From contig NZ_CP076538.1 in assembly GCF_018885265.1 (NCBI RefSeq), positions 4,562,001-4,626,000 of the forward strand: DNA of 64,000 bases, read 5' to 3'. Positions 14,704 to 43,076 of the stretch are shown here, in pieces (position 1 is the stretch's first letter; the number at the start of each line of letters is the position of its first letter). The notes beneath the pieces are model-generated. The model did no database searches. It was given only the letters and a program-made list of their open reading frames with translations, and had not been told where the DNA came from. The translations under genes and the position numbers were made by a program. Source of the stretch: Amycolatopsis aidingensis. GTDB lineage: Bacteria > Actinomycetota > Actinomycetes > Mycobacteriales > Pseudonocardiaceae.

Positions 14704-14704
14704 C

Positions 14705-14779
14705 GCGCGATTAGCTCAGCGGGAGAGCGCTACCTTGACACGGTAGAGGTCACTGGTTCGATCCCAGTATCGCGCACCA
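14705..14779 (+). tRNA. tRNA-Val (anticodon GAC), island attachment site
   Basis: A 75-nt cloverleaf with encoded CCA. The acceptor GCGCGAT pairs with ATCGCGC, the anticodon stem TACC/GGTA has loop with anticodon GAC, and the T-arm is ACTGG-TTCGATC-CCAGT. From the anticodon loop (14735) onward the sequence is repeated at 30464 and 42963. This makes it the integration site of two tandem islands, with the left junction restoring a full tRNA. Confidence 0.97.
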
Positions 14780-14848
14780 CCTGTTTTCCCAGGTCAAACC
14801 CCCTCCGGTGATCACCATCAGCGGGGGTTTCGTCGTTGCTGGGAGCAC
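14735..14848 (+). repeat. att repeat copy 1 (tRNA-Val 3' half plus terminator)
   Basis: Runs from ttgacacggtagaggtcact in the tRNA to gttgctgggagcac after the terminator. It matches copies 2 (30464-30573) and 3 (42963-43076) except for a few changes just after CCA (acctgttttcc against atctgtttccc). Interpreted as the left attachment site of the tandem islands. Confidence 0.85.
14796..14830 (+). terminator. Terminator of the tRNA cluster, duplicated with the att repeat
   Basis: Inverted repeat AAACCCCC (14796-14803) and GGGGGTTT (14823-14830) after the tRNA-Val 3' end, forming an 8-bp stem. The same hairpin is carried in the repeats at about 30525-30559 and 43024-43058. Confidence 0.7.
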
Positions 14849-14849
14849 A

Positions 14850-15250
14850 ATTGGGAGCAGTTGATCTTGCCTTACTGTGTTCACCACATCTGTGTTCATC
14901 ACCCGGCCACCCTGAGCAGGGAGACCATCGGCCCAGCGGCGACCTAACGCGCCCAGCGTGGACTAGACCGCAGGGTGGGGTGATGTGTGAATAGAGGCCC
15001 AGGATAACGGGCACGCACGTTCGTGCAGGAGTACGCCCGGTATTCCGTCCTCGATTGGAGCCAGATGCGGCGGGTATGCCGCAGCTCACGACATGTGAGC
15101 ACCCGGCGCAGCACCTCCACCTACGACTTGATCCGCATCCGGCTCAAAGTCCGCAACGGGGTCTCGTCGAACCTCGCAAGGACCTGGTTACGCAAGTGCG
15201 ACCGGTCTTCGCCCAGTACCCTCGCACGCTGCCGATCGATCCATCCCACT
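14850..15250 (-). pseudogene. Decayed tyrosine recombinase (integrase) next to the tRNA att site
   Basis: On the minus strand, 15210-15100 translates to SHLRNQVLARFDETPLRTL, then RMRIKS followed by a stop. This resembles the core-binding domain of actinomycete tyrosine integrases. Further along, in another frame (about 14980), comes LGLYSHITP, the catalytic-tyrosine segment that normally reads TLDxYSHVTP. A third frame gives LGRRWADGLPAQGG and then reads into the tRNA repeat. The catalytic R-H-x-x-R region is missing, so an internal deletion plus frameshifts have destroyed it. An integrase facing the tRNA at the left junction is exactly what a tRNA-integrated element should have. The decay means the island cannot excise with its own enzyme. 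Confidence 0.6.
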
Positions 15251-15299
15251 GAGCGGTGGACCTAGACACCGGTTCATCTGCGCCCCTTCATGATGAGCT

Positions 15300-15805
15300 G
15301 CACCCGAAGCCGTTCCGGCGATGTTGGCCCTGCATCTTGCAGTGCTCGGCGTTCCACACGACGTCGCAGGGGCCTGATGACAGCAGTCCTGTGGCGCCTG
15401 CGCCGCTCACGAGCAGATTGGGGTGCTGGGCGCGGGCCACAGCTCCCACCGATTCGCCGCGCCGCGCGATGGCACCGGGTTGCTGGGCCAGCACCTTGGC
15501 GAGCCTGCTCATGATTTCCTCGATCGGTAGCCCAGATGGGTTCACGGCCAGCGGCTTGGGTTTCGGCGGCTTGTCCGCCCGCGCACGGTCCCTCGCGAGC
15601 TTGGCCGACTTCTCGCGGACCTGCTCCAGGTGCGCGGGCCAGTCCGGCCAGCCGGGCAGGGCCCTATCCCCGGCAAGAGCAGGCACGGCGTCTCATGCCA
15701 CGCCTTCGGGCGGAGGCACTCCGAGCACATGTCGGCGGATTCAGGCGGAGGAATCGCTTCCAAGTATTCGCGACGCTCGTTTCTCCCGCGACAGCTCGTC
15801 GCCAA
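15300..15805 (-). pseudogene. Frameshifted hypothetical gene with a CxxC-type N-terminus
   Basis: Two minus-strand frames join into one plausible protein. The first contains SADMCSECLRPKAWHETP (about 15740-15690), with a CxxC and a nearby His that could bind zinc. The second, from about 15655, continues PGWPDWPAHLEQVREKSAKL and NPSGLPIEEIMSRLAKVLAQ. The switch lies near 15655, in a C/G-rich run. I do not recognise the family. Its place just upstream of the integrase remnant suggests a mobile-element gene. The last part before 15300 may be unrelated sequence. Confidence 0.35.
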
Positions 15806-16221
15806 ACTGGCGCCGAGCCGCGGAGTAGGTGGTGTCCGGCAGCCTGGCCTTAAGGGGCGCTGCTACTACGACTGTGCCTGGGTGGAACATCCACAGCGCC
15901 GTCAATGAGTCGCGGCAACGGTGACTGCTGATGCGTCGCGACCGGCGCACTGGTGAGTTGGCGTTCTACCGCTGCTACGCGCCCCACCCCGGCCGACCTG
16001 CCCCTCCTTTGTCCGGATTGCTGGAAGGCGGCGGACGGTCGGGTAGTCCTTCCAGACCCCGAAGGGTCATACCAGGTTGGACGAGTACCAGGTTCGCGCC
16101 TGGAAGGCATCGTACCGGTGGAGCACCCTGGTCTTAGTGGCGCGTCTGTTCCTGGTCTTCGCCGCAGCGCGGCCGCGAGCCCAACCGGTGTCCGAGGGGC
16201 TGATTCCGTTGATGCTCAACT
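15800..16221 (+). pseudogene. IS701-like (DDE) transposase remnant
   Basis: Plus-strand pieces in different frames match the C-terminal part of IS701/IS4-type transposases. They are GLKGRCYYDCAWVEHP (about 15850), LLMRRDRRTGELAFYRCYAPHP (about 15925-15990) and LDEYQVRAWKASYRWSTLVL (about 16077-16135). The segment ends at LIPLML where the IS5-type element begins at 16222. Internal deletions and frameshifts remove any function. It appears that the IS5-type element inserted into or beside this older remnant. Confidence 0.55.
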
Positions 16222-17220
16222 AGGTGATCTCATCAACTTTCAGGTGAGTAGGCCGTGTTCGAAATGGGTGAGCACGAGGGCGGGTATGACGATGTGGCCG
16301 ATCTAGCTGGGGCTGGCGGTGGTGTGGTGGAGCACTCGCCAGCCGGCCGGTGAGGACGGCGAATCCACGTTCGCCGATGCAGCGCAGGCCGCGGAGCAGG
16401 GCGTTGTAGGTGCGGTTGTCGGCATGGGGCTCTTGGTCACCGGCGGGTTGTTTGTACGGGGTGTGCACGCCGATGCCCGCGCCTTCGTAGCCGCCGTCGG
16501 CGAGCGCGGGCAGGTCGAGTTGGGAGTAGGCCTAGTACAGGGCGCCGAGGACGTGCTCTCGGGCCGCGGTCAGGTCATGCACCGAGCCGGGTTCGACATC
16601 GGCCACCCATCGCGAGAGACCGTGTGGTCCGGAGAGTGCTTGGATGTTGCCGCCGGGCTCGTGGGCTTTCCCGGAGTACCAGCGGTCGATCTGTTTCCCT
16701 TTGACACTCAGGGTTTTCTCGCTACACCGGTCAGCGGAGAAGATCTTTCCGTCGAGGATCACGTAAGCTGGCCCGTCGGCTTTGGCCTTGGCCTTGGCGT
16801 CATGCAGATCCGGCGCTTGTTTGGCAAGCACATTGATGACCTCGTCGAGGTAGCGATATCCGGTGGCACGGGAAACTCCGTGGTCCCGCGCCAACGCAGT
16901 GACCTCGGCGTTCTGCCGAAACCAGTGCAACCCCAGCACCGCCTGCCGAAAGCAGGTCATCGCCCTGCTGTTCTTGCGAGTACCGCGTCGACGGCGTTCG
17001 GCATGTAGCAACCGGCTGACGTACTGGGCGAGTTCACGCGGCACGTCGAGCATGGCACGATGGGCAATCACGGAGAGCCCCTGACCTTGGACTTGATCTT
17101 CGCAAATCCAGTCCTGCCAGGAGGCTCCCCGCCCACGCCTCACAGGCTCCCACCAGCAACAGAGCCAACCATCCCAGCACCGCGCTCTTCACACCCGAGC
17201 CGATCTTGGTGAGATCACCT
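16222..17220. mobile_element. IS5-family-type insertion sequence, about 1.0 kb, inactive
   Basis: Bounded by 15-bp terminal inverted repeats: AGGTGATCTCATCAA at 16222-16236 and TTGGTGAGATCACCT at 17206-17220 (14 of 15 match when inverted). It contains one transposase gene on the minus strand that carries a premature stop and a frameshift. Flanks are a transposase remnant on the left and a truncated lipoprotein gene on the right. No unambiguous target duplication can be read. Confidence 0.75.
16240..17053 (-). pseudogene. IS5-type transposase, disrupted
   Basis: Starts MLDVPRELAQYVSRLLHAER, followed by a helix-turn-helix (ALARDHGVSRATGYRYLDEV) and the DDE domain opening AYVILDGKIFSADR, then SGKAHEPGGNIQAL and VADVEPGSVHDLTAAREH, all typical of the actinobacterial IS5-like transposase family. 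An in-frame amber codon at 16532-16534 interrupts it. The same frame then continues (VHTPYKQPAGD, RTYNALLRGLRCIGERGFAVL) until a frameshift near 16350; the intended end THFEHGLLT lies at 16240. Inactive unless suppressed. Confidence 0.75.
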
Positions 17221-17385
17221 CAATACCTGAAGCCGGCATCTTCCATGCACTGCTTGACCAGGATCTGCTCGGCGTGGCCGCACCTGCACCGTCTCGGCGG
17301 CGGTCAGCTCCCGCCCGTCGGCCTGCGGGGCGTCGGAGCGCCCCGCGATCGCGCAGGCGCTGACGACCGTGAACAGCCTGCTCAT
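17221..17385 (-). pseudogene. Truncated lipoprotein gene, 5' end only
   Basis: The minus strand from ATG 17385 reads MSRLFTVVSACAIAG, a hydrophobic signal-like head, then ELTAAETVQVRPRRADPGQA. GAGGGGA lies 10 nt before the ATG, so this was a real start. The reading is cut off where the IS5-type element begins at 17220. A frameshift probably lies near the end, because another frame gives a more protein-like continuation. Function unknown. Confidence 0.4.
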
Positions 17386-17500
17386 GTGCGTTGTCCCCTC
17401 GAGGAAGCTTCCGGGAGCGTGGTGTGTGCTGCCAGCGGAAGGCTTGTGACGTCGCTTCAGCCATGGTTCAGCGCGAGCTACAGCGGAGCACCAGCGCCGG

Positions 17501-18040
17501 TCAGAAGATCCGGTCGTAGGCGGACCAGTTGTTGCCGACCATGGTGGCGTCAGTGGTGAATCCGCCGCGACCGTTGCCCTTGAACAGGTACAGGTCGCGA
17601 TTCGACGCGTGCCGCGCCAACACATCCGCGCTACCGTCACCCGTGAAGTCACCAGGCGAGAAAATCACATCATAACCCGACCAGTTGTTACCCACCACGA
17701 CAGCGTCACCAACAAACCCACCACGACCATCACCCTTGAACAAATACAGATCGCGATTCGACGCATGCCGCGCCAACACATCCGGGTTGCCATCACCGCT
17801 GAAGTCCACGACTTCATCGACCTCATCGTCGCGCGCGCCGAGCGGTTCGGTGTATCCGACGATGTCGCCGTCGCTACGACTGTAGGACCTCTGGCTGATG
17901 CGGTCGCTGCTGTTTCCCTCGATGGTGTAGACGGTGCTGCTGTTGGCGGACTCCACCCGGTCAGGACATCGCCATCGCCGACGATCACCTTCCGGACCCC
18001 GGCCTTGTACCAGGCGTACTTGACGAAGGATCGGTCAGCG
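17501..18040 (-). pseudogene. Remnant of a CHAP hydrolase with FG-GAP-type repeats
   Basis: The minus strand first shows a CHAP-domain fragment (FVKYAWYKAGVRKVIVGDGD, 18040-17950). It then jumps across a deletion of about 150 bp to ANSSTVYTIEGNSSDRIS and the tail of the domain. Two FG-GAP/VCBS-like repeats follow: FSGDGNPDVLARHASNRDLY and FTGDGSADVLARHASNRDLY. The CHAP parts are nearly identical to the intact gene at 25111-26478, but the C-terminal half differs (FG-GAP here, tachylectin-like there). It lacks the signal peptide and catalytic Cys, so it is dead. It sits back to back with a decayed SARP gene, mirroring the intact pair at 25.1-29.6 kb. Confidence 0.7.
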
Positions 18041-18190
18041 TGGTGAACCGGGCGTGACCCGGATGTCCAGGTGCAAGCGGTTCTTGCTGGTCTTGGTCTC
18101 CGGCACGGTCTGAAACCACACCGTCGGCCGGTTGCCATGCGGATCGACGAGGTCGTGCGCGCCTTCGCGATATCACCCGGCAGTGCGGAC
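18041..18190 (-). pseudogene. Fragment of a VOC/glyoxalase-like protein
   Basis: The minus strand translates to VDPHGNRPTVWFQTVPETKT followed by SKNRLHLDIRVT, a signature of glyoxalase-like VOC proteins (metal- or ligand-binding stress or resistance proteins). Only about 50 codons remain, wedged between the CHAP remnant and the SARP remnant. No start or metal site is preserved. Confidence 0.55.
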
Positions 18191-19825
18191 GATTGCCGCT
18201 GGCCATCCGCATCGCCGGGGCACGCCTGGCGTCCCGCCGCCAGTGGTCGCTGTCCCGGCTGGCGAACCGCCTCACCGACGAGCAGCACCGGCTCGACGAC
18301 TTGACGGTCGGCGACCAGGAGGTGCGGGCCGGCATCAACCTCAGCCACGCGCTCCTGCCCGAGCGCACGCAGGTCGCGCTGCGCCGGTTCGGTCTGCTCG
18401 GCCTGCCGCACTTCTCGGCCTGGATCGCCGCCGCTCTGGAAACCGAGCTGGACGAAGCAGAACACCTGCTGGAGGACCTCGTCGACGTATCGCTCGTCGA
18501 GGTCGACCGGGTGGACCCCGTCGGCCTCGTCCGGTACCAGCTCCACGACCTCGTCCGCCTGTTCGCGCAGGAACGCGCCGTCCAGGAGGACCCGCCCAAG
18601 GAACGCGCCGCGGTGGTCGAACGCGTGCTCGGCGGCTGGATCTGGCTGGTCGAGCGGATCAACGAGACGGTGCCACCGGTCCAGCCGGCGATCCAGGCCA
18701 CCTTCCGACTGAGCCGGGCCGTCGACGACGAGATCGCCCGGCGGTCGTCACCCGGCCGAGCGACTGGTTCCGTGCCGAGGAGGAGGAGCTGACCGCGGCC
18801 GTCGAGCTGGCCGCGGCACAGGACCTGGACGACATCGCGGTCGAGCTCGCCACCGCCCTGTCGGGCAGCGTGTTCAACGGCCTCTACCGCGTGCTCGACG
18901 ACCCGTTCGGGCCGTGGCACCGCACGCACGACGCCGCGCTCACCGCCGCACGACGCAACGACAACGCGCTCGGCGAGGCCACCCTGCTCGCGGGGCTGGG
19001 CCAGCTGCACTACGAACTGGACGAATACCCCCGCTCCCGCGCCTACCTCAGCCAGGCGCTGTCGGTGTTCCGCACAGCGGGCGACGTCCGGGGCGAGGCC
19101 GCCACGCTCGCCGCACTCGGCGCGACCTGCCGCGAGCAGGGCTACCTGCCGGAGGCACTGCAGTTCCTCGACCGAGCCGCCCACATGTGGGCCGAACTCG
19201 AGGATCCCGGAGCCCTGGGCCACGTCCGGCGAGTGGCCAGCACGGTGCGCCTGGAGATGGGCGACTACCCCGCCACGCACGCCGACCTGACCGAGGCACG
19301 CGCGCTGTTCGCCGCGGCGAGGGGCTCACCCCGCGCAGCCTCTCGCTCTACCACCGCGCCCGCGGCGAGCGGGCACAGGCCGAGGATCTCGCCCGCGCCG
19401 CGCTCGCGATCTTCGAGCAGACCGAGGACCGGATCCTGGTGGCCTACGCCGAGCGTGCACTGGCCAAGGCGCTGCTCCGGCTCGGCGACTCGGCGGCGGC
19501 GCTACCGCAGGCGCAGCGAGCGTTGGAGGTCTGCCACGCCCTCGGCGACGCGTTCGGCCAGGCGGGCACCCTCTGCGTCGTCGGCGAGATCCACCTCGCC
19601 GACGGCCGGCTCCACCAAGCCCGCGACTGCCTGGCGGACGCGCTGCGCCGGTGGACCGACCTGCGCGGCGAGCTGTTCCCGGCACGCACCAAGCACACCC
19701 TCGCCAAGGTGCACCACGCGCTTGGCGACACGTGTGGCGCCGAGCGGTTGACCGCCGAGGCCGTCGACACGTTCCGCACCTACGGCGCGCGCGAGTACAC
19801 CGAACTCACGGGGCGTTCGCTGTAG
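18191..19825 (+). pseudogene. Decayed SARP (AfsR-like) regulator, C-terminal part
   Basis: Three plus-strand frames in succession match residues about 455-1000 of the intact SARP regulator at 26601. They are LPLAIRIAGARLASRRQWSL through the NB-ARC end (18195-18745), DWFRAEEEELTAAVELAAAQ onward (18760-19320), and SLSLYHRARGERAQAEDLAR to the stop (19340-19825). The DNA-binding, BTAD and P-loop domains are missing and at least two frameshifts (near 18750 and 19320) separate the pieces. It is an old duplicate of the intact gene. Confidence 0.85.
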
Positions 19826-19904
19826 GGCCGGCTACAGCGTTCCTGAAGCGCCGCGCGGCAACATGGCATCCCCATCGTATGTCCAGACCGGAGGAACCAA
19901 GCCC

Positions 19905-20564
19905 GTGTCGTCGTTCGTGCTGTTGTCCGATCCCCGCGTCGCCGCCCTGCCCGTCCGGGAATGCGGCGAGCCGTTGGTGGACCTGCGCGACACACAAGCC
20001 ATCCGCGTCGACCCGCGTCTCGCCGACGAACTGGGTGCCTACGCGCACGTGCGGCTCAGTGTCGTCGACCGGCTCGTCGCCGCGCAGTGCCAACTTCCAC
20101 GTGGGCTGCGCCTGCTGGTGATCGAAGGGTTCCGGCCATATGCCCTGCAGCAGCGGTACTTCGCGAGCTGCGTGACCCGAATCGGCCTGGCCAACCCGGA
20201 CTGGCCGAGCGAGCCCGTGCACATCGAGGCCGCGACCTACGTGGCGCCACCGGAAGTGGCACCACACGTCGCGGGTGGCGCCGTGGACCTGACGCTCTGC
20301 ACAGCGGACGGCGACGAGCTGCCGATGGGCACCGAGGTGAACGCCACCCCACCCGAGCACGGCGCCGAATGCTTCACCGCCTCCCCCGACATCGACACCG
20401 AGGCCAGGAAGAACCGAGACATGCTCATCGAGGCGATGACCACGACCGGTTTCGTGAACTATCCCAGCGAGTGGTGGCACTGGTCCTACGGGGACCGGTA
20501 CTGGGCGTTGGTCACCGGTCCCACCCACGCCCGCTACGGCCCAGCCACCCTGGACCAGGCCTAA
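19905..20564 (+). CDS. D-Ala-D-Ala dipeptidase (VanX/DdpX family)
   Basis: A 219-aa M15D zinc dipeptidase. The metal and catalytic residues are all present: H121 and D128 in APHVAGGAVDLTL, E189 and H192 in PSEWWHWSYGDRYW, and the substrate Arg R77 in EGFRPYALQQR. These correspond to VanX H116, D123, E181, H184 and R71. Known members hydrolyse D-Ala-D-Ala in vancomycin resistance or peptidoglycan-dipeptide recycling. GTG 19905 is preferred over ATG 19863 because GGAGGA lies 9-10 nt before it. No vanH, vanA or vanRS lies nearby, so recycling or self-protection are both open. Confidence 0.85.
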   Translation: MSSFVLLSDPRVAALPVRECGEPLVDLRDTQAIRVDPRLADELGAYAHVRLSVVDRLVAAQCQLPRGLRLLVIEGFRPYALQQRYFASCVTRIGLANPDWPSEPVHIEAATYVAPPEVAPHVAGGAVDLTLCTADGDELPMGTEVNATPPEHGAECFTASPDIDTEARKNRDMLIEAMTTTGFVNYPSEWWHWSYGDRYWALVTGPTHARYGPATLDQA

Positions 20565-20600
20565 CGGGGCGTGGTGTCGACAACGACGCGGTCGGCCGGC

Positions 20601-20914
20601 CGCCTGATCGGCATGCGCGCGAGCGGGGACGTGGTGCTGGCCGGCGTGCATGTCGCGGTCCCGGAGCGATCCCTGGTTGATCGGGCGGGGAAGGAGATCT
20701 TCACGACGTTGAGCGACGGGATCCGGAACAGCTGGACCGTGCTCTCCTCGACCCGGTACAGCTCGGCTATCACGCGCTCGTTCAGGAAGGACTCGTCCGC
20801 GGCGATCCGGTAGCCCTCGGCGTCGCGCATGAACAGCTCCATGGTGACCCAGAACGGACCCGCGTTCTTGGCGTGGACCTCGTGGGCGAGGTCCGCAAGG
20901 GTGGTCTCAGGCAT
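20601..20914 (-). pseudogene. DUF4387 protein, frameshifted
   Basis: From ATG 20914 the protein reads MPETTLADLAHEVHAKNAGP, then ESFLNERVIAELYRVEES, which matches DUF4387, a small partner of AtuA-like proteins. After KISFP the conserved ending continues in another frame (RPINQGSLRDRDMHAGQHH), so a frameshift lies near 20690. The start is 1 bp after the stop of the AtuA-like gene, the usual arrangement of this pair. Confidence 0.7.
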
Positions 20915-21967
20915 TCACGTTCTCCCCATCTCGGTGCGGAACAGGCTGGTCGGGTCGTCGCAGTCGACGACGTGGTTCAGCACGAACTCGTACGCCGCGC
21001 CGCTCGACCTCGGCCGGCGAGGACGCGAGGCTCGGCAGGTAGTCCATGGCCGGGGTCGGCAGGTGCAGCATCAGCGGGTTGGCGACCTTGGCGACGGCCG
21101 TCGCGGTCGCCTGGTCGGGTGCGTTGACAAGCAGCATCACGCCGACCTCTCGCGGCGGCCCGCTCTCGGGCTCGAGGTCGCCGAGCACCGCGTTGTGGCC
21201 GTACGGGCGGAGGTCGAAGGCGTACTCGTCGTCCGCCAGCCCCAGCGTCTGGCTCACCCGCTGCGTGATCATCGTGCACATCAGCTCCGCCCAGGCGTCG
21301 ATCTCGGCGAGGATGCGGGGGTCCCGGATCGCGGTGAACGACATGGTCTCGTAGCCGGTGACCCGGGCGCCTTCCAGCTTGATCGTGTACTGGTCGGCGA
21401 CGTGGAACCTCGACCCGGACGATCCGGTCGTCGACCGCGGCGTACCGCGCGTCCCGAACGTCGAGGGTGCCGTCGGGCTCCCGCATCTCGAACGGGTGCG
21501 CGGTCTCGTAGAGCATGTGGGCGGCGACCGACATCGGCGTGCACGACACCGCGCGGTCAAGCGGCTCGAAGGTGAAGCCGCCAGCGTCGACGGTGGCCAG
21601 GACTCCGCCCGCGCGCGGGTTGCTGGTGCACTGACCGCCGCACTCGACGATCTTGGCGGCGTGCCACGTCGGCCCGGCGGGCATCCCTTTCATCAGCGGG
21701 TAGGCGGCGGCCACCGCGGTATCGGTGGCACGGCCGGCGAGCACGACCTGGGCACCGGCGCGGAGTGCCGCGACGATCGGTCGTGGCCCATCGCGCCGAT
21801 GATGTGGGTGCAGCTCTCGAGGGGCTCGGCCCGCAGTTTGTCCCAACGGTGGCAGCGGGTAGATCCGGCCGGCGTCGAGGAACTCCCTTCAACTCGGCCG
21901 CGTTCTGCTCGCCGTAGATCCGCGCGACCTTCAGGTCCAGGCCCTCCTCCGCCATCACCTCGGCGCG
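20915..21967 (-). pseudogene. AtuA-like (DUF1446) acyclic terpene utilisation protein, multiply frameshifted
   Basis: Minus-strand fragments in all three frames align to AtuA/DUF1446 proteins: GLDLKVARIYGEQNAAELKG (near 21930), AALRAGAQVVLAGRATDTAV (about 21770), VECGGQCTSNPRAGG (about 21640), YTIKLEGARVTGYETMSFTA (about 21380), and YEFVLNHVVDCDDPTSLFRT at the C-terminus (about 20990-20925). At least three frameshifts separate them and the N-terminus is missing. Intact relatives act in degradation of acyclic terpenes or branched acids together with a DUF4387 partner, which here follows directly. Confidence 0.75.
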
Positions 21968-22143
21968 ACTTCGCACGGCGGCTGTCCTGGGCGGGCGTTC
22001 CGGTCGAGCTGCACATCTATCCAGGCGGCATCCACGGCGGTGAAAGCCTCGCGCCGGACGCCGAACTGAGCGGTTCGAGTCCGCGGCTACCGGCACGACG
22101 CGCCCTCCACCGGGCGCCCGGCGACGAGGATCCGCCCGGATGA
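21965..22143 (+). pseudogene. C-terminal fragment of an alpha/beta hydrolase (HSL/esterase type)
   Basis: The plus strand reads DFARRLSWAGVPVELHIYPG then HGGESLAPDAELS. This is the region around the catalytic His of hormone-sensitive-lipase-type esterases, where GVPVELHxYPGxxHG is characteristic. Only this piece of about 40 codons survives, abutting the opposite-strand AtuA remnant, so a deletion junction lies near 21965. Confidence 0.55.
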
Positions 22144-22154
22144 CACCGGGTCGG

Positions 22155-22983
22155 TCAGGTCAGCACTTCGCGGCCGCTCGTAGTCCGGACTCGACCGCGC
22201 CTTCCAGGTATCCGGTCCAGGTCCGGGTTGTTTCCGTGCCCGCCCAGTGGACCCGCCCCGCGGGGGTCGGCGGCGCGGTGAAGGTGGCGAGGGCGCCTAC
22301 CCGGGGAAGTGCCGAGTGGCCGCCGCCTACGTGCGGGTCCTCCTGCCATGCCTTCTCGTGCCAGTCCACGGGATGGTGAGCGGCGGCGCCCAGCGCGTGG
22401 GCGGCGGTGTCCAGCACGGTGGTCCTGCGGTCTTCCGGGGGCATCGCGGCGAGGGTGCGGGCGCGGTGTCCGGGGACGAGCACGGCCACGATGGCGTGGT
22501 CCGCGCGGATCGAGCCGCTCGGGGTGTCGACCAGGACGTGGTCGGGGTGCGGGTGATCGCGGTCGTCGGGCGGGCCAGGTGGACGTCGAGGTCGGCGGCC
22601 ATCCGTTCAACGAGCACCCGGCGCCTTCGGTGAGCAGCGACTCCTGTGCGCCGCCTTCGACTCCGAGCATCGATCGGAGCCCGCCCGAAGCCCGAACCAC
22701 CGCGGTGAACGCGTGCAGGGACACCTGGTCGACGTCGGCTGCGAGGGGTTGATGACCACTTCCAGCAGGGCGCGTGCCTTTCGGTGCGGGATCTTGGTCA
22801 GCCAGTCGGCGACTGTCGTAATGCCGCCCAAGTCCACCGCCGAGCCTCCGGCCGATCGGACGGTCTGGGCGCGACCGCCCACCCGGTCCGCCGCTTTCAG
22901 CACCGTGACGTCGACGTTCTTGCGGCGAACTCTTGGGCCGCGGTGAGCCCCGCGAAGCCTGCCCCTATGACGACCACGTTCAT
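22155..22983 (-). pseudogene. Flavin monoamine oxidase, decayed
   Basis: From ATG 22983 the protein begins MNVVVIGAGFAGLTAAQEFA, a perfect FAD-binding Rossmann motif. It is soon frameshifted, continuing as VTVLKAADRVGGRAQTVRS, then after a deletion KARALLEVVINPSQP, FTAVVRASGGLRSMLG and finally WAGTETTRTWTGYLEGAVES, the C-terminal FAD-contact motif of amine oxidases. Several frameshifts and a missing middle section inactivate it. It is divergent from the TetR gene at 23034 and starts inside the shared palindrome, so it was probably that regulator's target. Confidence 0.8.
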
Positions 22984-23013
22984 GCAACGATAGTTGTACA
23001 ACGTCTGTTGCAT
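22982..23013. promoter_or_regulatory. Palindromic operator between the amine oxidase and the TetR gene
   Basis: A 32-bp inverted repeat. The outer arms ATGCAAC and GTTGCAT flank a perfect inner palindrome GTTGTACAAC. It overlaps the ATG of the amine oxidase remnant and ends 20 bp before the TetR start. Position and symmetry are as expected for a TetR-family operator that represses both divergent genes. Confidence 0.65.
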
Positions 23014-23033
23014 TTAAAGGGTAGGCTGACCGC

Positions 23034-25081: not shown

Positions 25082-25110
25082 GGCTGCCTTCCGTTCGCTC
25101 GCGCCGGAGG

Positions 25111-26478: not shown

Positions 26479-26600
26479 AATCCCGTCCCTTCGGTTAACC
26501 TTGGCCCGTCGTCGACACCCTCGACCAGGACGGTTCAACTTCGCTGTAGCCCGACTGCAACGGTGCCGCGGGCGAGAGCTCAGCCTCTCGGGGAGGGCGG

Positions 26601-32389: not shown

Positions 32390-32448
32390 TTCGAGAAGTC
32401 CTCCGGTTAGACGTTCACAGCAAAATACTCCAGCGCTGACTAACGCGT

Positions 32449-34697: not shown

Positions 34698-36975
34698 GTG
34701 GTGTTCGCCCAGGAGTTGAGCCGGTTGTTGGCTGGGTCGGGGTGGACGGCGGCGTTTCTGGCCGACGAGGCGAAGGTGTCCCGATCGTATTTGAGCAAAT
34801 TGCTGCGGGGAACGCAGTCGCCGAGCGCGGCAGTGGCGCGCGCGTTGGACGCGGCGCTGGGGGCGGGTGGTGCGCTGGCGATGTTGCGGGAGGTGTCCGA
34901 GGTGCCGCGGCCGGCGCAGTTGCCGGCGGCTCCGCTGCGCTGGGTGGGACGCACCGCCGAGTTCGCCCGGATGGACGCCGCACTCGAACAGAGCCAGGAG
35001 GCGCGAGCACCGGTGGTGGTGTCGGTCGATGGACCGCCGGGTGTGGGTAAGACGGGGCTGGCGTTGACCTGGGCGCAGAGTGTTGCCGCGCGGTTTCCGG
35101 ACGGCCAGCTGTATGTGGATCTGTGCGGGTATTCGCCGGGTGGGCGGGCGACGCCACCGGGGGAGGTGCTAGAAGGGTTCCTGGTGGCGTTGGGGTTGCC
35201 GGCCGGTCAGGTGCCGCCGCGGTGGGAGCAGCGGGCGGCGGCGTTTCGCACCCTGGTCCGCGGGCGGCGGTTGGTGGTGGTGCTGGACAACGCGGCGGAC
35301 GCCGACCAGGTGGAGCCGTTGCTGCCGGGTAGCGAGGGCTGCGGGTGTGTTGTGGTGGTGACTAGTCGCAGCACGTTGGCTGGGCTGGCGGTGCGGCACG
35401 ACGCGGTCGGGATCGCGCTGGACCCGCTGCCGTTGGACGAGGCGACGGCCCTGGCGGAGGCCCTCGTGGGGAGCGATCGGGCGTGGGCCGAACCTGCGGC
35501 CCTGCGGCGGGTGGTGGCGGGGTGTGATCGGTTGCCGTTGGCGGTGCGGATCGCTGGGCAGCGGATCGCCGGGCAGCGCGGTGCGACGATCGCGGAGCTG
35601 GTCGAGGGGTGGAGCGACGAGGCGGCTCGGCTGGACACGCTGACCGCGGATGCCACGACCGGTGTGCGGGCAGCGTTGTCGTGGTCGTATCGGGCGCTGC
35701 CCGATCCTGCGGCGCGGATGTTCCGGCTGGTGGGGCTGGTGGGTCCGCATCGGGGCCGGACGATCGGGGGCGAGGCCGCCGCGGCGCTGGCGGGTGTGGA
35801 TCCGGGGCGGGCGCGTCGGTTGCTGGCGGTGGTGGCGGGGACACATCTGATCGAGGAAGGTGACCGGCCGGGCCGGTTCTACCTGCACGACTTGCTGCGC
35901 GCCTACGCGGTGGAACGCTGCACTGCCGAGGACACGGCGCAGGCGCGCGAGGCGGCGGTGGGGCGGGTGTGTGCGTGGTATCTGCATACCGCGGTGCGGG
36001 CCTGCCGGGCGCTGGCGCCGTCCCGGTTCAGCCCGCTGCGGCCGGTGCCGCTGCCGGAGGGGGCCGAGCCGCTGGGCTTCACTGACGACGCGGCCGCGAT
36101 GCGGTGGCTGGACACCGAGTTGGCCGCGATACCGGCGGTGGTCGAGCTCGCCCGGCGGTCGGGGTGGCGGGAGGCGGCGTGGCAGCTGCCGGTGGCGTTG
36201 TTCGACTATTTCCAGATTCGCAAGCCGTGGCATGTGTGGGTGCGCACGCACGAGGCGGCCGAGCAGGCCGCGGCCGAGGTGGGTGATCGGGCGGCGTTGG
36301 GGTGGGTGTTGACCAATCTGGCCGAGGCGTGGCGAGGGCAGCGGGCGTTCGCCCGCAGCGGCGAGTTGTATGAGAAGGCGATCGCGTTGCGCCGGGCCGG
36401 TGAGGGGGTGCATGGGTTGGCGTGGGCGCTGGGAGGCGCGGCGTTTCTGGAGGTCGACCGCGGACAAGCCGCGGCCGAGGACGGCGACCGGGCGGAGGCC
36501 GAGCGGTGTTTCGCCGTGGCGGGAGAGCGGGCGCGGGAGGCGGCGGGGCTGTTCGAGCAGGTCGGTGATGTGGAAGGCCAGGCGGTGATGCGGGCGACGT
36601 TGGGCGACATCGACCGCGCCCAGGGTCGCCTGGAGCATGCGGCCGCGGGGTTGCGCCGGGCGTTGGAGCTGCTCGGCGAGGTGGGTCACGACTATGCCCG
36701 GGCGATGGCCGAGGCACGGCTGGCCGCGGTGGAGGCCGCCCGCGGCCGGCGGGCGAGGCCGACGTGTTGCTGGGCCGAGCCGGTGACCGGTTCCGGGCGT
36801 TGCGGGAACGGTGGCACCTGGCCGAGGTGCTGACCCGCCACGGTGATCTCCACCGGACGAGGGGCGTCCGGGACGGGCGCGCGCGTGCTGGGCGGAGGCG
36901 CTGCGGCTTTATGCGGAGGTCGATGACACCGCCGCGGCGGGGGTGCGGACCCGGCTCGAGGCCGTGGGCGCGTGA
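34698..36975 (+). pseudogene. XRE-HTH/NB-ARC/TPR regulator, C-terminus frameshifted
   Basis: From GTG 34698 (AAGGGAGGG 8 nt upstream) the protein has an XRE helix-turn-helix (FAQELSRLLAGSGWTAAFLA, EAKVSRSYLSKLLRG). An NB-ARC ATPase follows (Walker A GPPGVGKT near 111; Walker B RLVVVLDNAA; GxP motif CDRLPLAVRIAG), then TPR-like helices to about residue 680. Near 36747 the frame changes (DVLLGRAGDRFRALRERWHL continues in another frame) and again near 36890 (ALRLYAEVDDTAAAGVRTRL, stop at 36975). Two late frameshifts could be sequencing errors or decay. The DNA-binding and ATPase parts are intact, so a shortened protein may still work. Confidence 0.75.
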
Positions 36976-36977
36976 CC

Positions 36978-37983
36978 CTACCCGGCCTCATCAGCGCCGG
37001 AGCCAGCGGTGAGGTCATGGCGCAGCCGGTGCAGGGCGGTGGCGGTGTCAGCACGCAGAATGACCTGGACCGGGGGCGGGGCGGGTAGCTCGGCCCGAAC
37101 GGGTGCTCGCGCCGGTCGATTTTGGTGGCGCCCCGGATGGCGGGTGGCCCGTCGAGGCAGGTTACTTGCAGCTCGTCGGTGGTGGTGGCCAGCTTCGGGT
37201 GCACGGCGATCGCGGCCGCGACGGGGTCGTGCAGCAGGCAGCCCGGCCGGCCGAGGTGCTGGGTGTGGAAGGTGACGTAGTGCTGCATCCACCCGGCCAG
37301 CTGCCGCGCCGCCGCGTGGGGACCGGCGGCCAGGGTCGCCAGCCAGTCCTGGTCGACCCAGGCGTGCCGGGTGACGTCCATCGGCACGACGGTGAGCGGG
37401 AAACCACTGCGCAGCACGAACTCGGCGGCAGCGGGGTCGTGGTAGGCGTTGGCGTCGGCCTCCGGGCCGATGTTGCCGGCCACGCCGATCACGCCGCCCA
37501 TCCACACCACCCGCCGCACCAGGGTCGGCAGCCGGGGCTCCAGATGCAGCGCCAGGGCCAGGTTGGTCAGCGGGCCCAGCTCGAGCACGGTCAACTCGCC
37601 GGGGTGGGCGTGGGCGAGCCGGACCAGCTGTTCAGCGGCATGCTCGGACACCACAGGCACGTCGGCGTCGGGCTCGGCGTGCCCGCCCAGCCCGTCCGGG
37701 CCGTGCACGAAGGTGCCGGCGAGCTCCGGGTCCGGTTCCCGCCCCCGAGCTCGAGGTCCGCGCCGACCGCGACCGGCACCGTGGCCACGCCCGCGGCAGC
37801 CAGGATCCGCACGGCGTTCGCCGCACCCACCGTGGCCGGGACATTGCCGTGCACCGAGCCGACCGCGACCAGCTCCACACTCGGCTGGCGGGCCAGCCAC
37901 AGCAGCGCGGCGGCATCGTCCACCCCGGGGTCGCAGTGCACGACCATTCGCACCCGCCCGGCGGGTACTTCGTCCCCAGTCAT
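36978..37983 (-). pseudogene. Inosine-uridine nucleoside hydrolase-like gene, frameshifted
   Basis: From ATG 37983, after a short leader, the metal-binding motif reads VHCDPGVDDAAAL. The family has DxDxxxDD, so the first Asp is His here. After a frameshift in a C/G run near 37745 it continues FVHGPDGLGG, LTVLELGPLTNLALALHL, WMGGVIGVAGNIGPEADANA and YHDPAAAEFVLRSG, all hallmark blocks. A second frameshift near 37090 precedes ATALHRLRHDL at the end. Members hydrolyse nucleosides to ribose and base. Back to back with the MFS gene at 38125. Confidence 0.75.
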
Positions 37984-38124
37984 CCGTCCTCCACATCGAG
38001 CCGCCGCCGCGGATGGTCCGCCGATCACGCTAGCGACCGCCCGCCCCGGGCCGGGTTTCCTGATTCTGGAAACCCGCAGTGCTGGCCCCACCACCTGTCA
38101 CTGTCCATAGTTGGGTAATCACCG

Positions 38125-39348
38125 ATGGGTATTCCAGGGGATCGGGAGTTTCGAGCACTGTGGCTGGCTTCGGCGCAGTCGATCGTGGGCGACCAACTCG
38201 CGCGGGTCGCGTTGTCGGTGCTGGTCTACCAGCGCACCGGCTCGCCGGTGGCCACCGCGGCCACCTACGCGTTGACGATGCTGCCCGCCCTGGTCAGTGG
38301 CATGCTGCTGGCCGGTCTGGCCGACCGGTTCCCGCGGCGGGCGGTGATGGTCGGCTGCGACCTGCTCCGCGCGATCGTGGTGGCGGGCATGGCCGTGCCT
38401 GGGGTGCCGCTGCCCGTGGTGGCCGGGCTGTTGGTCGTGGCGCAGCTGGCCGAGGCGCCGTTCGCCGCCGCCCAGGGAGCGACCCTGCCGCTGGTCCTGC
38501 CCGGCGAGGCCTACGAGCGCGGCCAGCGGCTCATGCTCGTGACACACCAAGCCGGCCTGCTGGCCGGGTTCGCTGGCGGCGGTGTGCTGGTCGGGCTGCT
38601 GGGCACACACCTCTCACTCGCCGCGAACGCCGCCACCTTCCTGATCTCCGCGGTACTCGTCCGGCTCGCGGTGCGCGCCCGCCCCACTGCGGCGGAGGAC
38701 ACCGGCGACCCGCCGGTGGGGTTGCGCGCGCAGGTCACCGGTGGGGCACACCTGATCTGGTCCGATCGGCGGCTGCGCGTCCTGGTCGGCCTGGGCTGGC
38801 TGGCCGGGTTCAGCGTGACACCGGAAGGCCTGGCCGCGCCGTTCGCCGACGAGGCCGGGGCCGGCGCGGCGGCGGTGGGATGGCTGCTTGCGGCCGACCC
38901 GGCCGGGATGATGCTCGGCGCGTTCCTGCTCGGCCGACTGTCCACCCGGTGGCGGCTGCGGCTGCTCGGCGTGCTGACCGTGGGCACCAGCCTGCCGCTG
39001 GTGGCCTACCTGTCCTCGCCGCCGCTGGCCGTGGCGCTGGTGCTGCTGGCCGCCTCCGGACTGTGCTCGGCCTACCAGATCACCGCGGGAGCGACCTTCG
39101 TCCGCCTGGTTCCCGACACCCGGCGCGGGCAGGCGCTGGGTCTGGCCCGTTCCGGGATGGTCGCCGCGCAGGGCCTCGGCGTCACCGCCGGCGGGCTGCT
39201 GGCCGGCTGGCTCGGCAGCGCCAGCGCGGCGATCGCCTGCGCGGGGGCCGCGGGAACACTGGTCGCGCTCGCCGCGGCCACCGCGTGGTCACGCATCGGC
39301 GCCGACCGGATGGCCACCACCCTGGCCACCCACACCCGGCACCGGTAG
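38125..39348 (+). CDS. MFS transporter
   Basis: A 407-aa, 12-helix major facilitator. The N-terminus DREFRALWLASAQSIVGDQL and the loop motif LAGLADRFPRRAVMVGCDLL are characteristic of the MFS_1/MFS_3 drug-export-like group. The second half has LLGRLSTRWRLRLLGVLTVG and LVPDTRRGQALGLARSGM. It is intact, unlike its divergent nucleoside hydrolase neighbour (141-bp gap). Its stop is 5 bp from the first of two tiny minus-strand peptide genes, so an export partnership is possible but unproven. Substrate unknown. Confidence 0.82.
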   Translation: MGIPGDREFRALWLASAQSIVGDQLARVALSVLVYQRTGSPVATAATYALTMLPALVSGMLLAGLADRFPRRAVMVGCDLLRAIVVAGMAVPGVPLPVVAGLLVVAQLAEAPFAAAQGATLPLVLPGEAYERGQRLMLVTHQAGLLAGFAGGGVLVGLLGTHLSLAANAATFLISAVLVRLAVRARPTAAEDTGDPPVGLRAQVTGGAHLIWSDRRLRVLVGLGWLAGFSVTPEGLAAPFADEAGAGAAAVGWLLAADPAGMMLGAFLLGRLSTRWRLRLLGVLTVGTSLPLVAYLSSPPLAVALVLLAASGLCSAYQITAGATFVRLVPDTRRGQALGLARSGMVAAQGLGVTAGGLLAGWLGSASAAIACAGAAGTLVALAAATAWSRIGADRMATTLATHTRHR

Positions 39349-39353
39349 AAACC

Positions 39354-39389
39354 TCACCAGATCTTGTCTCGCCAGATCTTGTCCGCCAC
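39354..39389 (-). CDS. Miniature peptide gene, 11 aa, MADKIWRDKIW
   Basis: The minus strand has GGGAGG, nine bases, then GTG and eleven codons giving MADKIWRDKIW before TGA. The ribosome site and spacing are the same as in the second miniature gene 54 bp upstream (39444-39464). The peptide holds the DKIW unit twice, as if the shorter gene had been internally duplicated. I know of no described family with this sequence. It could be a signalling or precursor peptide, or the DNA could instead be a set of AGATCTTGTC binding sites. Too short for statistics, so confidence is limited. Confidence 0.4.
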   Translation of the reverse strand: MADKIWRDKIW

Positions 39390-39443
39390 GACTGCTCACC
39401 TCCCACCCACGCGATCGGCACACCAACCCGCTCGACTCGCCGG

Positions 39444-39464
39444 TCACCAGATCTTGTCGCGCAT
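39444..39464 (-). CDS. Miniature peptide gene, 6 aa, MRDKIW
   Basis: The minus strand has GGGAGG, nine bases (TGACCGGTG), then ATG and the codons for MRDKIW followed directly by TGA. The layout copies that of the 11-aa gene downstream: the same ribosome site, the same nine-base spacing and the same DKIW-stop ending. The codons for DKIW are identical (gacaagatctgg) in all three units, so DNA-level selection cannot be separated from peptide-level selection here. Confidence 0.4.
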   Translation of the reverse strand: MRDKIW

Positions 39465-39636
39465 CACCGGTCACCTCCCATCACCACCACAACCCGCCCA
39501 AGCGGGCACGCTCATCGTCCCCCGCCCACACGAGCCCGCCGGAACTGCGCGACCGATCAGCAACCAGCCCAGCTAGATCACCCATCGCACGGCCACCCGC
39601 ACGCGACGAAATCACCACAGGTCACCAAGGGGCAGC

Positions 39637-40941
39637 ATGACCAGCGACGAACCACACAGACCCGCCACCGCCCGAAGAGTTCGCGAATGGAAACTGTGGC
39701 ACCTGCCCACGGCCGCGTGGATCTACGTCCTCGCCGTCGACCTGATCGCCGGCGCCGTGGCGCTGGCCGCCATCCTCGGCACCCCGGTGCCCGCCGACCG
39801 GTGGACCGTCGCAGCCGTGCTCGCAGTGAGCGCGCTGGCCCATCTGCACCTCAGCCACGCCATCGAACGCATCCGACGCGACCGCAGCCACACCCCGCAC
39901 GTCGACCTCTGCAGCCTGTGGACCTTCGCCGGCGCGCTCCTGCTGCCCCCACCACCGGCGATCGCGCTGGTCGTGGCGATCTACACCCACCGGTGGTGGC
40001 TCGTCGGCCGCCGCGACCCCAGCCGGCCGCCCCACCGCGGTGTGTTCACCATCGCCATGATGACCCTCACCACCCTGGCGGTCACCACCCTCAGCCACGC
40101 CACCGGCCTGGCCGACCAGCTGCACAACCACACCATCAGCTGGGCCGGCCTCGTCGTCCTCCTGCTCGCCCTGGCCACCCAGTGGGCCACCAACACCCTG
40201 CTCGTCGGCGCCGTCATCACCCTCGCGATCCGCCCCCATCGCCGCCGCGACGCCCTCGGCAGCGCAGCCGACAACCTGCTCGAACTCGCCCAACTGGCCC
40301 TCGGCGCGTTCCTCGCCGTCGCCGCCGCCCACGCCCCCGCCCTGGCCGTGCTCATGGTCATCCCCGCCGTCACCCTGCACCGCGTCGTCCTGCTCCACCA
40401 GTTCGAAATCGCCGCCCGCACCGACCTCAAAACCGGGCTACTCAACGCCGTCACCTGGCAACACCAAGCCGACATCGCCCTCATGCGCACCCGCATGCAA
40501 CCCGGCGGACGCCTCGCCCTGTTCATGATCGACATCGATCACTTCAGCGATATCAACAACCACCACGGACACCAAACCGGCGACGCCATCCTCACCCGAG
40601 TCACCCGCCTACTCGCCCGCTCCGTCCGCCGCACCGACACCATCGGCCGCTTCGGCGGCGACGAATTCACCGTCCTGCTCCCCGACACCGACCAAGCCGA
40701 AGCCCTCGCCATCGCCGAACGGATCCACCACCACATCCGCGGCATCACCCTCGACGACGGCACCACCATCACCCTCTCCCTCGGCATCGCCCTCTACCCC
40801 GACACCAACGCCCACGACATCGACACCCTCCTCGCCAACGCCGACACCGCCCTCTATGCCGCCAAACACGCCGGCCGCAACCGCACCCACCTCGCCACCA
40901 GCGAACCCACGCAACCCACCTCCCCAACCCACACGGAGTAA
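39637..40941 (+). CDS. Membrane-anchored diguanylate cyclase (GGDEF)
   Basis: A 434-aa protein. About six to seven membrane helices (residues 25-260, a MASE-like sensor module) are followed by a GGDEF domain with the intact active motif FGGDEF near 338-343 and the substrate-binding DIDHFSDINNHHGHQTGD. It should make cyclic di-GMP from two GTP at the membrane. No EAL domain is present and no RxxD inhibitory site stands out. AAGGGG precedes ATG 39637. In filamentous actinomycetes c-di-GMP controls the BldD developmental switch, so an island-borne cyclase could influence host development (inference). Confidence 0.9.
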   Translation: MTSDEPHRPATARRVREWKLWHLPTAAWIYVLAVDLIAGAVALAAILGTPVPADRWTVAAVLAVSALAHLHLSHAIERIRRDRSHTPHVDLCSLWTFAGALLLPPPPAIALVVAIYTHRWWLVGRRDPSRPPHRGVFTIAMMTLTTLAVTTLSHATGLADQLHNHTISWAGLVVLLLALATQWATNTLLVGAVITLAIRPHRRRDALGSAADNLLELAQLALGAFLAVAAAHAPALAVLMVIPAVTLHRVVLLHQFEIAARTDLKTGLLNAVTWQHQADIALMRTRMQPGGRLALFMIDIDHFSDINNHHGHQTGDAILTRVTRLLARSVRRTDTIGRFGGDEFTVLLPDTDQAEALAIAERIHHHIRGITLDDGTTITLSLGIALYPDTNAHDIDTLLANADTALYAAKHAGRNRTHLATSEPTQPTSPTHTE

Positions 40942-41189
40942 CCCACGCCCACTCGGCGACATGCCCAGGCCACGACGTTCTTCCGTACCAGCACCGCTGA
41001 CCTTCACTCGATGCGAGCGTGTCCAAGCTGATCCGCGTTCTATGACGTAGTGGGGTCACAGCGGGCCACGAAAGGCTGAGACAGTCCGGCTGCTCGGCCG
41101 GGCGATCTCGACAGCAGCGCCCCTGAGAGCGGGTGTCACGCCTACTGACGCGCGCCTGGCGCCGGCGGGCCGCGTCTTCTTTAGAATGA

Positions 41190-41560
41190 GCTGAAAGTGC
41201 GGACGCAACACCGGCTACCTCGCCCGTGAGATGCGCCGCGCCGAGCGGCACAGGGACGCGATGCCGGAACTGGAGAGCAGCCGCGGCGAGCGGCTGGTCC
41301 TGCGTCCGTTGACCTGGAAGAACCTGAAGGAGCGGGCCGCGGATCTGCGTCGCCAGTTCGGGCTCCTCGGCAGCTTCGTGCCGACAGAGTCCCAGCCGAC
41401 CCAGGTCTTCAACTTCTGGCGTGGCCTCGCCGAGGCCCGCAGGATCCTCGTCTTCCAGACGACGAAGATCGCGCTCGAGACGTTCCGCGACCTGTCCATC
41501 TACCACGACCCACTGCCGGTCATCCTTCCTGAGGCCCGAGCCCTCCGTTATGCGGCGTCG
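41190..41560 (+). pseudogene. ImmA/IrrE-like protein remnant
   Basis: The plus strand reads RLVLRPLTWKNLKERAADLR, then FNFWRGLAEARRILVFQTTK and LETFRDLSIYHDPLPVIL. This resembles the part of XRE-ImmA proteins just before the HExxH metallopeptidase motif. The motif itself and all that follows are missing, and the sequence after VILPEAR is not protein-like. The helix-turn-helix end is also absent. ImmA proteins relieve phage-like repressors in mobile elements, which fits an island. The 240 bp upstream (40942-41189) show nothing I can name. Confidence 0.45.
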
Positions 41561-41759
41561 ACAACCTATGCCGCGTCGACGCCCGGTCGCGCCGATGCTG
41601 ACATGGCCACCGCGGCTCGATGGTGGCTACGGGTTGCCCAGGCATACTCACCTCGTCCATCGTCGCCGAGGTGCTCGCCAACATAATCCGCGCAAGTGGT
41701 CACTCTACGAGGACGCCATTGCGGGCATCCGCAACGGCGAAGGAAGGAACGATATCCCC

Positions 41760-42734
41760 ATGAAGGTCCTGGTAGTGGGCGGAACCGGCTTCATCGGACA
41801 CCACATCGTCCGTGAGTTGCTGGCACACGAGCACGATGTCACGGTCCTGGCCCGCACTCCATCCACGAACCTGCCGGCCGCGGTGACCATCCACACCGGC
41901 GACCTCAACGACCTGTCCGAGGGCAGACTTGAGGCGATCGTTGCCGACCACAAGGGCATCGTCGTCGCATCGGCCGCCGCGGTATACGCACCACGCGACG
42001 CCGATATCACGATGTTCTTCCACAACACCAACGTCGCCCCGGTCGCCAGGCTGCTGGCCGCCGGGCGCCGCGCGCACTGCGACCGCGCCGTGATACTCGG
42101 CAGCTTCTACGCCACCCTACAGCGCGAACACCCCGCGCTCCGCCTCGCCGAACTCAGCCCCTACATTGCGAGCAGAATCGACCAAGCCACACACGCCCGC
42201 GACGCAGCCGGCCCAGAAATCTCCGTGGCCGTCCTCGAACTCCCCTACGTCGCGGGCACAACTCCAGGCCGGCAGTCACCTCTCGAACCTCTCCTGCACA
42301 GCATGACCATCGGCAACATCGGACTGTTGACCTACCCTGGCACCACAGCCGTCGTTACCGTCACACAAGCCGCACAGGCCGCCCTCGCGGCGCTGGACCG
42401 TCGCGCCGACGGCAACTACCCCATCGTCACCACGAACCTTCCGTGGGCGGGCCTGCTTACCCGCCTCGCATCCGCGACAGGCCACGCTCCCAAACGTGTC
42501 TGGAGACTCCACCCCCGAGCCGTCAAGCTAATGATCCGCATGGAAGATCTCCGCCAACGCCGACGAGGGCTCAGCATCGGTTTCGACCCAACGCAATGGA
42601 GCAATCTGCACACCAACGCCATGGTCCTCAACCCCGACGTCGCCCGCACCGAACTGGGCATCAACCCCGACGACCTCGACCTGGCCCTCAGCCACGCCGC
42701 GCCGACATCACAAGCCACCACGGAGCTAAGCTGA
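41760..42734 (+). CDS. NAD(P)-dependent epimerase/dehydratase-like SDR
   Basis: A 324-aa extended short-chain dehydrogenase. The N-terminus MKVLVVGGTGFIGHHIVREL is a textbook Rossmann GxxGxxG site. The usual catalytic YxxxK is not evident: the expected region reads LSPYIASRIDQATHARDA, with Tyr followed by no Lys at the right distance. It may therefore be an atypical, NmrA-like or non-catalytic member. GGAAGGA lies 12 nt before ATG 41760. It is the last gene before the third att repeat. Substrate and pathway cannot be deduced. Confidence 0.7.
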   Translation: MKVLVVGGTGFIGHHIVRELLAHEHDVTVLARTPSTNLPAAVTIHTGDLNDLSEGRLEAIVADHKGIVVASAAAVYAPRDADITMFFHNTNVAPVARLLAAGRRAHCDRAVILGSFYATLQREHPALRLAELSPYIASRIDQATHARDAAGPEISVAVLELPYVAGTTPGRQSPLEPLLHSMTIGNIGLLTYPGTTAVVTVTQAAQAALAALDRRADGNYPIVTTNLPWAGLLTRLASATGHAPKRVWRLHPRAVKLMIRMEDLRQRRRGLSIGFDPTQWSNLHTNAMVLNPDVARTELGINPDDLDLALSHAAPTSQATTELS

Positions 42735-42884
42735 CCGTGCTCCCCAAGCATTCGATGCGACCAGTCTGGTGTGTTCCGGGCTGACTGCGCCAAACGGTCG
42801 AGGTATCTGAACCCCGATACCCGTGGGAGCACGAGATGGGAGGAACCTGCGAGGATCGACCTGCACTGAACCGCGCCGGAAGGC

Positions 42885-43076
42885 AGTGAACGCGCATCAA
42901 CCGCAGCGCTCCGACCTGCTGGATCTCCATCTGCGCGGGTCAGGGCGAGGGCCATGACTACGTTGACACGGTAGAGGTCACTGATTCGATCCCAGTATCG
43001 CGCACCATCTGTTTCCCCAGGTCAAACCCCCTCCGGTGATCACCATCAGCGGGGGTTTCGTCGTTGCTGGGAGCAC
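42885..43076 (+). repeat. att repeat copy 3 (right end of the tandem islands)
   Basis: Carries the same 78-bp arm as copy 2, then from 42963 the tRNA-Val 3' half, terminator hairpin and gttgctgggagcac. The last four bases gcac are shared with copy 1 but not copy 2, as expected if host sequence resumes here. The T-arm has one change (a42984 for g). Not a functional tRNA. Confidence 0.9.

Follow-up and report, generated by a model that had tools for sequence, protein, structure and literature searches.

The tRNA-Val(GAC) Locus and Its Three Attachment-Site Copies

The locus analysed here lies in Amycolatopsis aidingensis (assembly GCF_018885265.1, contig NZ_CP076538.1, forward-strand positions 4,562,001-4,626,000); this stretch of 64,000 nt is called the window, and all coordinates are positions in it. 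An intact tRNA-Val(GAC) gene (14705..14779, plus strand, detected with ARAGORN) closes a tRNA-Gly/Cys/Val group, and its 3' half recurs twice downstream, at spacings of 15.7 and 12.5 kb, delimiting two blocks of partly broken genes. We consider it likely that these blocks are two decayed, integrase-less genomic islands that accreted in tandem with the tRNA gene as target.

Copy 1 (14735..14858, plus strand) resembles a left attachment site (attL) and comprises the tRNA 3' half, CCA, the terminator, and about 14 more bp in common with copy 3. Copy 2, the middle one, occupies 30464..30573 (plus strand) and is cut at its right edge relative to the other two, while copy 3 (42963..43086, plus strand) resembles a right attachment site (attR). 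A 78-bp left arm that is not present at copy 1 precedes copy 2 (30386..30463, plus strand); it equals the corresponding part of the copy 3 arm and, counting from the core, bears GACCTGC at -50 and GGTCA at -25. The full left arm of copy 3 spans 42824..42962 (plus strand) and, together with the core, matches an attR-like copy in the related genome G091 (79% over 201 bp, reaching 42824).

A repeat finder returned a 188-nt repeat at 99% between 30386-30573 and 42885-43072, with 14657-14844 in register at 71%. A base-by-base comparison counted 2 differences in 110 positions between copies 1 and 2 (from 14735/30464), 7 in 125 between copies 1 and 3 (from 14735/42963), and 1 in 110 between copies 2 and 3; the 78 bp that precede the latter two are identical. 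Local alignments gave 97.4% for 14730-14844 against 30459-30573 and 94.6% for 14730-14858 against 42958-43086. Similarity of copies 1 and 3 continues about 14 bp past the right end of copy 2, to 14858/43086, and the copy 3 arm reaches 42824; copy 2 is therefore the truncated one, shortened on both sides and keeping only the inner 78 bp of the long arm. The original prediction, a reading of the sequence alone, had placed the 3' half and terminator at 14735, 30464, and 42963, which was exact to the base. The common 78-bp arm and the single mismatch in 188 bp that it gave for copies 2 and 3 were reproduced by the repeat finder and the base comparison, and its element spacings agree with the repeat finder.

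The genome (7.66 Mb) is a single contig. Searching it with 14735-14860 at E <= 0.001 yielded four matches, namely the neighbouring tRNA-Val(CAC) and the three copies, these three with E no higher than 6e-49; a 41-base pattern with up to three mismatches allowed recovered the same three copies only. Since the genome-wide searches return nothing else, the repeat is neither a chance similarity nor dispersed, the latter being an outcome that the original prediction had named as its refutation. The direct repeats of the tRNA 3' end thus bracket foreign DNA, as expected of a tRNA-targeted genomic island, and support the proposed role of the tRNA 3' end as the attachment site.

Island 1 (14859..30385, about 15.5 kb) holds partly broken genes: an IS5-type transposase remnant, an FG-GAP fragment, a TPR protein, an M15 peptidase, DUF4387 and AtuA-like genes, an amine-oxidase fragment, a TetR regulator, two tachylectin-domain proteins (one glycoside-hydrolase-like, one CHAP), and a large BTAD/NB-ARC/TPR regulator. 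Island 2 (30574..42884, about 12.3 kb), likewise partly broken, contains a minus-strand group of a nonribosomal peptide synthetase (NRPS) end piece, a thioesterase piece, an MFS exporter, and a truncated carbamoyltransferase, followed by an NB-ARC/HTH regulator, a nucleoside hydrolase, an MFS protein, a GGDEF protein, and an epimerase. The carbamoyltransferase fragment (30574..31105, minus strand) represents the N-terminal ~177 residues of a NodU-type enzyme (Pfam Carbam_trans_N); its residues 23-178 correspond to profile positions 3-157 of 556, and the similarity extends no further than the right edge of copy 2. No match to a solved structure was found for this fragment at 0.001. On the other side of copy 2, the reading frame 29703-30458 has no family match. 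The earlier proposal that cargo is cut at the middle copy therefore holds on the right, where the carbamoyltransferase ends at the repeat; for the frame on the left it is a possibility.

Mobility Genes in the Window and Genome

In order to look for mobility genes, 33 island open reading frames (ORFs), chosen by length and codon GC, were scanned with Pfam. Neither island yielded an integrase, and the scanned ORFs did not include the other genes of an integrative and conjugative element (ICE) or its actinomycete form (AICE), that is, replication and TraB/FtsK or type IV secretion transfer genes, or the capsid, tail, and terminase genes of a prophage. With NCBIfam, applied to 10 frames, the NB-ARC/HTH protein had one weak match, below the cut-off, to TrbA (20 of 96 bits). 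PHROGs matches for 10 island ORFs were confined to transposition, regulator, and unknown-function families, and PADLOC returned generic TPR matches only for nine island proteins.

Genome-wide, PF00589 was detected at 15 places, none of them inside the window. A tblastn search of the window with the integrases of relatives gave no integrase match; its queries included the longest open stretches of the relatives' loci in any frame, several of which are clearly not integrases, and this portion of the search carries little weight. The single strong match (E 4e-53) paired an MFS transporter in the window with an MFS transporter query that had been chosen by position. The islands thus resemble a cis-mobilizable element (CIME), in which attachment sites are kept and integration genes are lost, the integration genes presumably having been present at an earlier time.

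Comparison of the Locus with Relatives

The closest relative found, G047, is 98% identical over 113 bp around the tRNA and 88% identical over the 3.4 kb leading up to it. It also shares the right flank, 43223..51632, which encodes a PucR-type regulator, a lipase, and the following genes. The alignment of this flank falls into five pieces, of which four are 94-96% identical and the remaining one 84%; window positions 49311-50770 are missing from G047, and 43077-43222 have no match there. Between the tRNA and this common flank, G047 carries 49.4 kb that show no similarity to the islands except for one 36-bp match and that open with a 97-residue C-terminal integrase relic. The same tRNA and the same right flank enclose a different insert in G047, which makes 14.8-43.2 kb a variable slot that measures 28.5 kb here and 49.4 kb there. 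Differing content at one site between common flanks, as islands display, was found in this one relative.

The SsgA-like gene to the left of the tRNA was in place in all nine further relatives examined. To the right of the tRNA (13.7 to ~133 kb downstream in each), none of the nine had the window's genes in order. Matching our genome to 120 kb past the window with the nine relatives disclosed scattered, paralogue-level similarities, including one adjacent pair at 44-50% in G004, so that the right-hand core boundary is known through G047 only. The 744-aa regulator at 57145 was tried as a synteny marker and dropped for having too many paralogues. A PucR protein search of genome contigs produced 45 pattern matches and no confirmed relative.

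The original prediction of two integrated islands at tRNA-Val is upheld in part: the attachment-site copies and the variable slot relative to G047 stand, whereas an intact mobile element does not, as neither block contains an integrase.

An Arm Motif Shared by Truncated tRNA-Val(GAC) Copies

We compared 17 truncated tRNA-Val(GAC) copies from 14 genomes. These comprised 11 of 20 extracted stretches, picked by eye among the matches listed as copies on the same contig and strand as another copy, along with window copies 2 and 3 and the copies in G091, G001, G006, and G008. The remaining nine stretches were seven intact tRNA-Cys/Val pairs, which served as controls, and two complete tRNA-Val genes lacking tRNA-Cys (L262 in G089 and L267 in G095), which were not counted. 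GACCTGC at exactly -50 together with GGTC[AG] at -24 or -25 occurred in 13 of the 17 truncated copies, window copies 2 and 3 among them, several of the 17 coming from close species and thus not being independent. The motif pair is missing from four copies: the one in G001, the one in G008, where GACCTGC stands at -17, and two from G063. One of the G063 copies reads GGCCTGC, with GGTC at -25. Neither motif appeared in the seven controls, which are weak because their left sides are conserved tRNA sequence. ARAGORN still calls the truncated copies L258 and L263 tRNA-Val. The conserved arm motif supports the original proposal that copies 2 and 3 go back to the same integrase family.

Against plasmids and phages, the repeat gave tRNA-core matches only, and the exact 24-base arm stretch had no match in viral contigs.

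Two arrays of tRNA-Val(GAC) 3'-end copies were observed in relatives. One, at C1:3247538-3537235 of G089, has four copies over ~290 kb, four being the most tRNA-Val(GAC) copies seen on one contig, and the other, at C10:246181-335880 of G095, has three over ~90 kb; each array includes an extra complete tRNA-Val with a different 5' flank.

An Integrase Family beside tRNA-Val(GAC)

Alignment of the SsgA-like gene was used to collect loci from relatives, of which the best 80 of 96 were kept; 78 contained the tRNA, and 77 extended at least 1.6 kb beyond it. A locus was counted as positive if a homologue of the G006 integrase lay within 2.5 kb of the tRNA, and loci were split by genus. Such a homologue stands beside tRNA-Val(GAC) at 28 of the 77 loci, corresponding to 25 of 48 in Amycolatopsis and 3 of 29 in other genera. 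It runs unbroken for at least 430 aa at two loci (L187 and L209), and L248 has a 406-aa match at 33%. The other homologues are split or partial, to which draft assemblies may contribute false breaks.

The G006 integrase itself, which is intact and 98% identical to its counterpart at the A. orientalis locus L187, scores below the Pfam Phage_integrase cut-off (24.1 vs 27.1 bits). Homologues were found in 195 phage records. Among the 15 matches listed, which are 24-28% identical, most are annotated as integrases; they include the tyrosine integrases of the actinophages VWB, mu1/6, and RP3 and of several Gordonia phages, the RP3 record being unannotated at the matching place. The likeness to these enzymes is limited by the low identity, and the window differs in that no integrase was found in it.

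Integrase relics lie directly after a second or inner tRNA copy in G006, G001, G095, and G089 and at locus L184. This position points to tandem accretion by the same integrase family elsewhere in the genus. In G091, a broken tyrosine integrase follows the tRNA-Val, which is located on a contig other than that of the attR-like copy.

Proposed History of the Locus

Together, the repeats, the arm motif, and the variable slot favour tandem accretion at tRNA-Val(GAC), which is probably an integration hot spot in Amycolatopsis. In the proposed mechanism, a phage-type tyrosine integrase would recombine the tRNA 3' half with an attP site that joins the same 3' half to a left arm; two spaced sites in this arm, GACCTGC at -50 and GGTCA/G at -24 or -25, could be where the enzyme binds. 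Integration would restore the tRNA at the left and leave a 3' fragment at the right. Two such elements, now at 14.8-30.4 and 30.5-42.9 kb, would have arrived separately, one behind the other, and both would later have lost an integrase they once carried and their other mobility genes by deletion. Cargo would then remain between the attachment-site copies, as in CIME-like cis-mobilizable islands.

Several observations weigh against this history. No integrase or credible relic was detected in the window by the PF00589 genome search or by tblastn, and the G006-family integrase had no match in our genome at E 0.001, its sole trace being a weak 30-aa match outside the window; the same query found matches in eight of eight chosen relatives. 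Among the 77 loci, 49 are without such an integrase beside the tRNA. In G047, no second attachment-site copy within three mismatches and no recognisable right-hand copy was found. An empty site, with an uninterrupted tRNA-Val joined to the sequence after 43076, had been put forward as a check, and it failed to appear: none was seen in G047, where 49.4 kb intervene, in the nine relatives over the distances given above, or at the 77 loci (up to ~10 kb).

The remaining objections concern copy 2. Its match to copy 3 over 188 bp with a single differing base, ending abruptly on both sides, is odd for independent elements because their cargo is unrelated and eroded. At both positions that separate copies 1 and 2, moreover, copy 2 agrees with copy 3 and with the flank of the intact tRNA in G047. 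Simple accretion would give copy 2 its right half from an element, so this agreement also counts against it; neither base is diagnostic, as the copy on C5 of G091 carries those of copy 1. A later copying or homogenisation event is thus a real rival to simple accretion, and it could have taken two forms.

In the first, two elements did accrete and copy 2 was subsequently homogenised with copy 3 by recombination. This is a variant of tandem accretion and takes its share of the likelihood given to that history as a whole; we regard it as possible, if somewhat doubtful. It fits the tandem layout as well as the near-identity beside eroded cargo. On the other hand, it has no direct evidence of its own and would look the same here as the recent arrival of two near-identical attachment modules. 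If the copies were homogenised, their identity says nothing on the age of the islands.

In the second, there was only a single 28-kb island, inside which gene conversion or a small duplication reproduced 188 bp of copy 3 as copy 2. The one mismatch, the abrupt ends, and the agreement of copy 2 with copy 3 instead of copy 1 would all follow, and the right end of copy 2 does fall within the carbamoyltransferase gene. We nonetheless judge this history unlikely, as relatives have second or inner copies followed by integrase relics, and duplication does not usually yield a 188-bp copy that extends from the arm to the terminator with no wider homology. A further reading, in which the repeats have nothing to do with integration and are dispersed or alike by chance, can be dismissed with near certainty, given that the genome and 41-base pattern searches return this locus alone (plus tRNA-Val(CAC)) and that the repeats show tRNA 3'-end geometry and a conserved arm whose 24-base stretch has no match in viral contigs.

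Relation to Known Systems

Tandem accretion of two decayed islands would be a new example of a known event and not a new mechanism, since the same tRNA serves as a landing site in related species. Decayed elements and CIMEs accreted in tandem at tRNA genes are described, with ICESt1-related elements cited, in the portions considered of PMC5704250. The islands studied here are similar in lacking integration genes, in having attL/attR-like copies of a tRNA 3' end, and in their tandem arrangement with a middle site; they differ from what those portions describe in that neither a functional neighbour element nor transfer genes were seen, and the middle copy is truncated.

Accretion of AICEs and of DAICEs is known from Streptomyces (PMC9513070, seen in part). 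The known accretion at another tRNA is comparable in its one to three elements per tRNA depending on the strain, identical direct repeats, remnants, and often pseudogenised cargo, whereas no transfer, replication, or integrase gene was seen among the scanned island ORFs. Tandem actinomycete ICEs have been reported in Frankia and S. avermitilis (PMC3218068, as far as the parts seen cover them). These likewise place two elements behind one tRNA, and the direct repeats of one Frankia element pass the tRNA 3' end; in contrast to our islands, they encode integrases and are defined by recombination, replication, and transfer genes.

Among the open-access papers listed on tRNA-linked islands and integrative plasmids of Amycolatopsis, none deals with tRNA-Val(GAC) of this genus, judging by title and the start of the abstract. 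Core and non-core structure is the subject of the portions examined of the A. orientalis genome paper (PMC4048454), which do not describe the tRNA-Val(GAC) site. As far as these searches go, the type of event is already known, while the site, the arm motif, and the widespread decay of the integrase have not been described in the literature searched.

More tentatively, tRNA-Val(GAC) in Amycolatopsis could act as an accretion ratchet: elements would be delivered again and again by a single integrase family whose arm architecture is fixed, the integrases would mostly decay while arm and core copies persist, and arrivals would stack, so that the tRNA would mark a boundary between conserved and species-specific chromosome. 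Alongside the tRNA hot spots known from antibiotic-producing actinomycetes, the locus would be an additional accretion site, and one that can be recognised by its arm motif. Islands without an integrase escape searches based on that gene but could be revealed by the motif (GACCTGC at -50 with GGTC[AG] at -24/-25). With so many broken integrases at a single site, how fast they decay could be measured throughout the genus.

Duplicated Sequences within Island 1 and Genes Further Downstream

Island 1 contains internal repeats in addition to its boundaries. A TPR-containing stretch is present twice, at 18168-19803 and 27932-29587 (78% over 1.66 kb, 9.8 kb apart), the former apparently duplicating part of the large BTAD/NB-ARC regulator. 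The neighbouring tachylectin-domain genes share 710 bp at 100% identity (23673-24382 and 25121-25830), which suggests a very recent duplication or conversion. Stretches of 130 and 76 bp are 97-99% identical between the FG-GAP remnant region (17828-18028) and the CHAP/tachylectin gene (25837-26173). The DUF4387 gene adjoins the AtuA-like gene at 20564-21846 (minus strand), and the latter matches part of its family profile only. To the right of the islands, at 80.7-108.4 and 130.3-160.6 kb in window coordinates, minus-strand frames of 1280-3762 aa possibly belong to large biosynthetic clusters.

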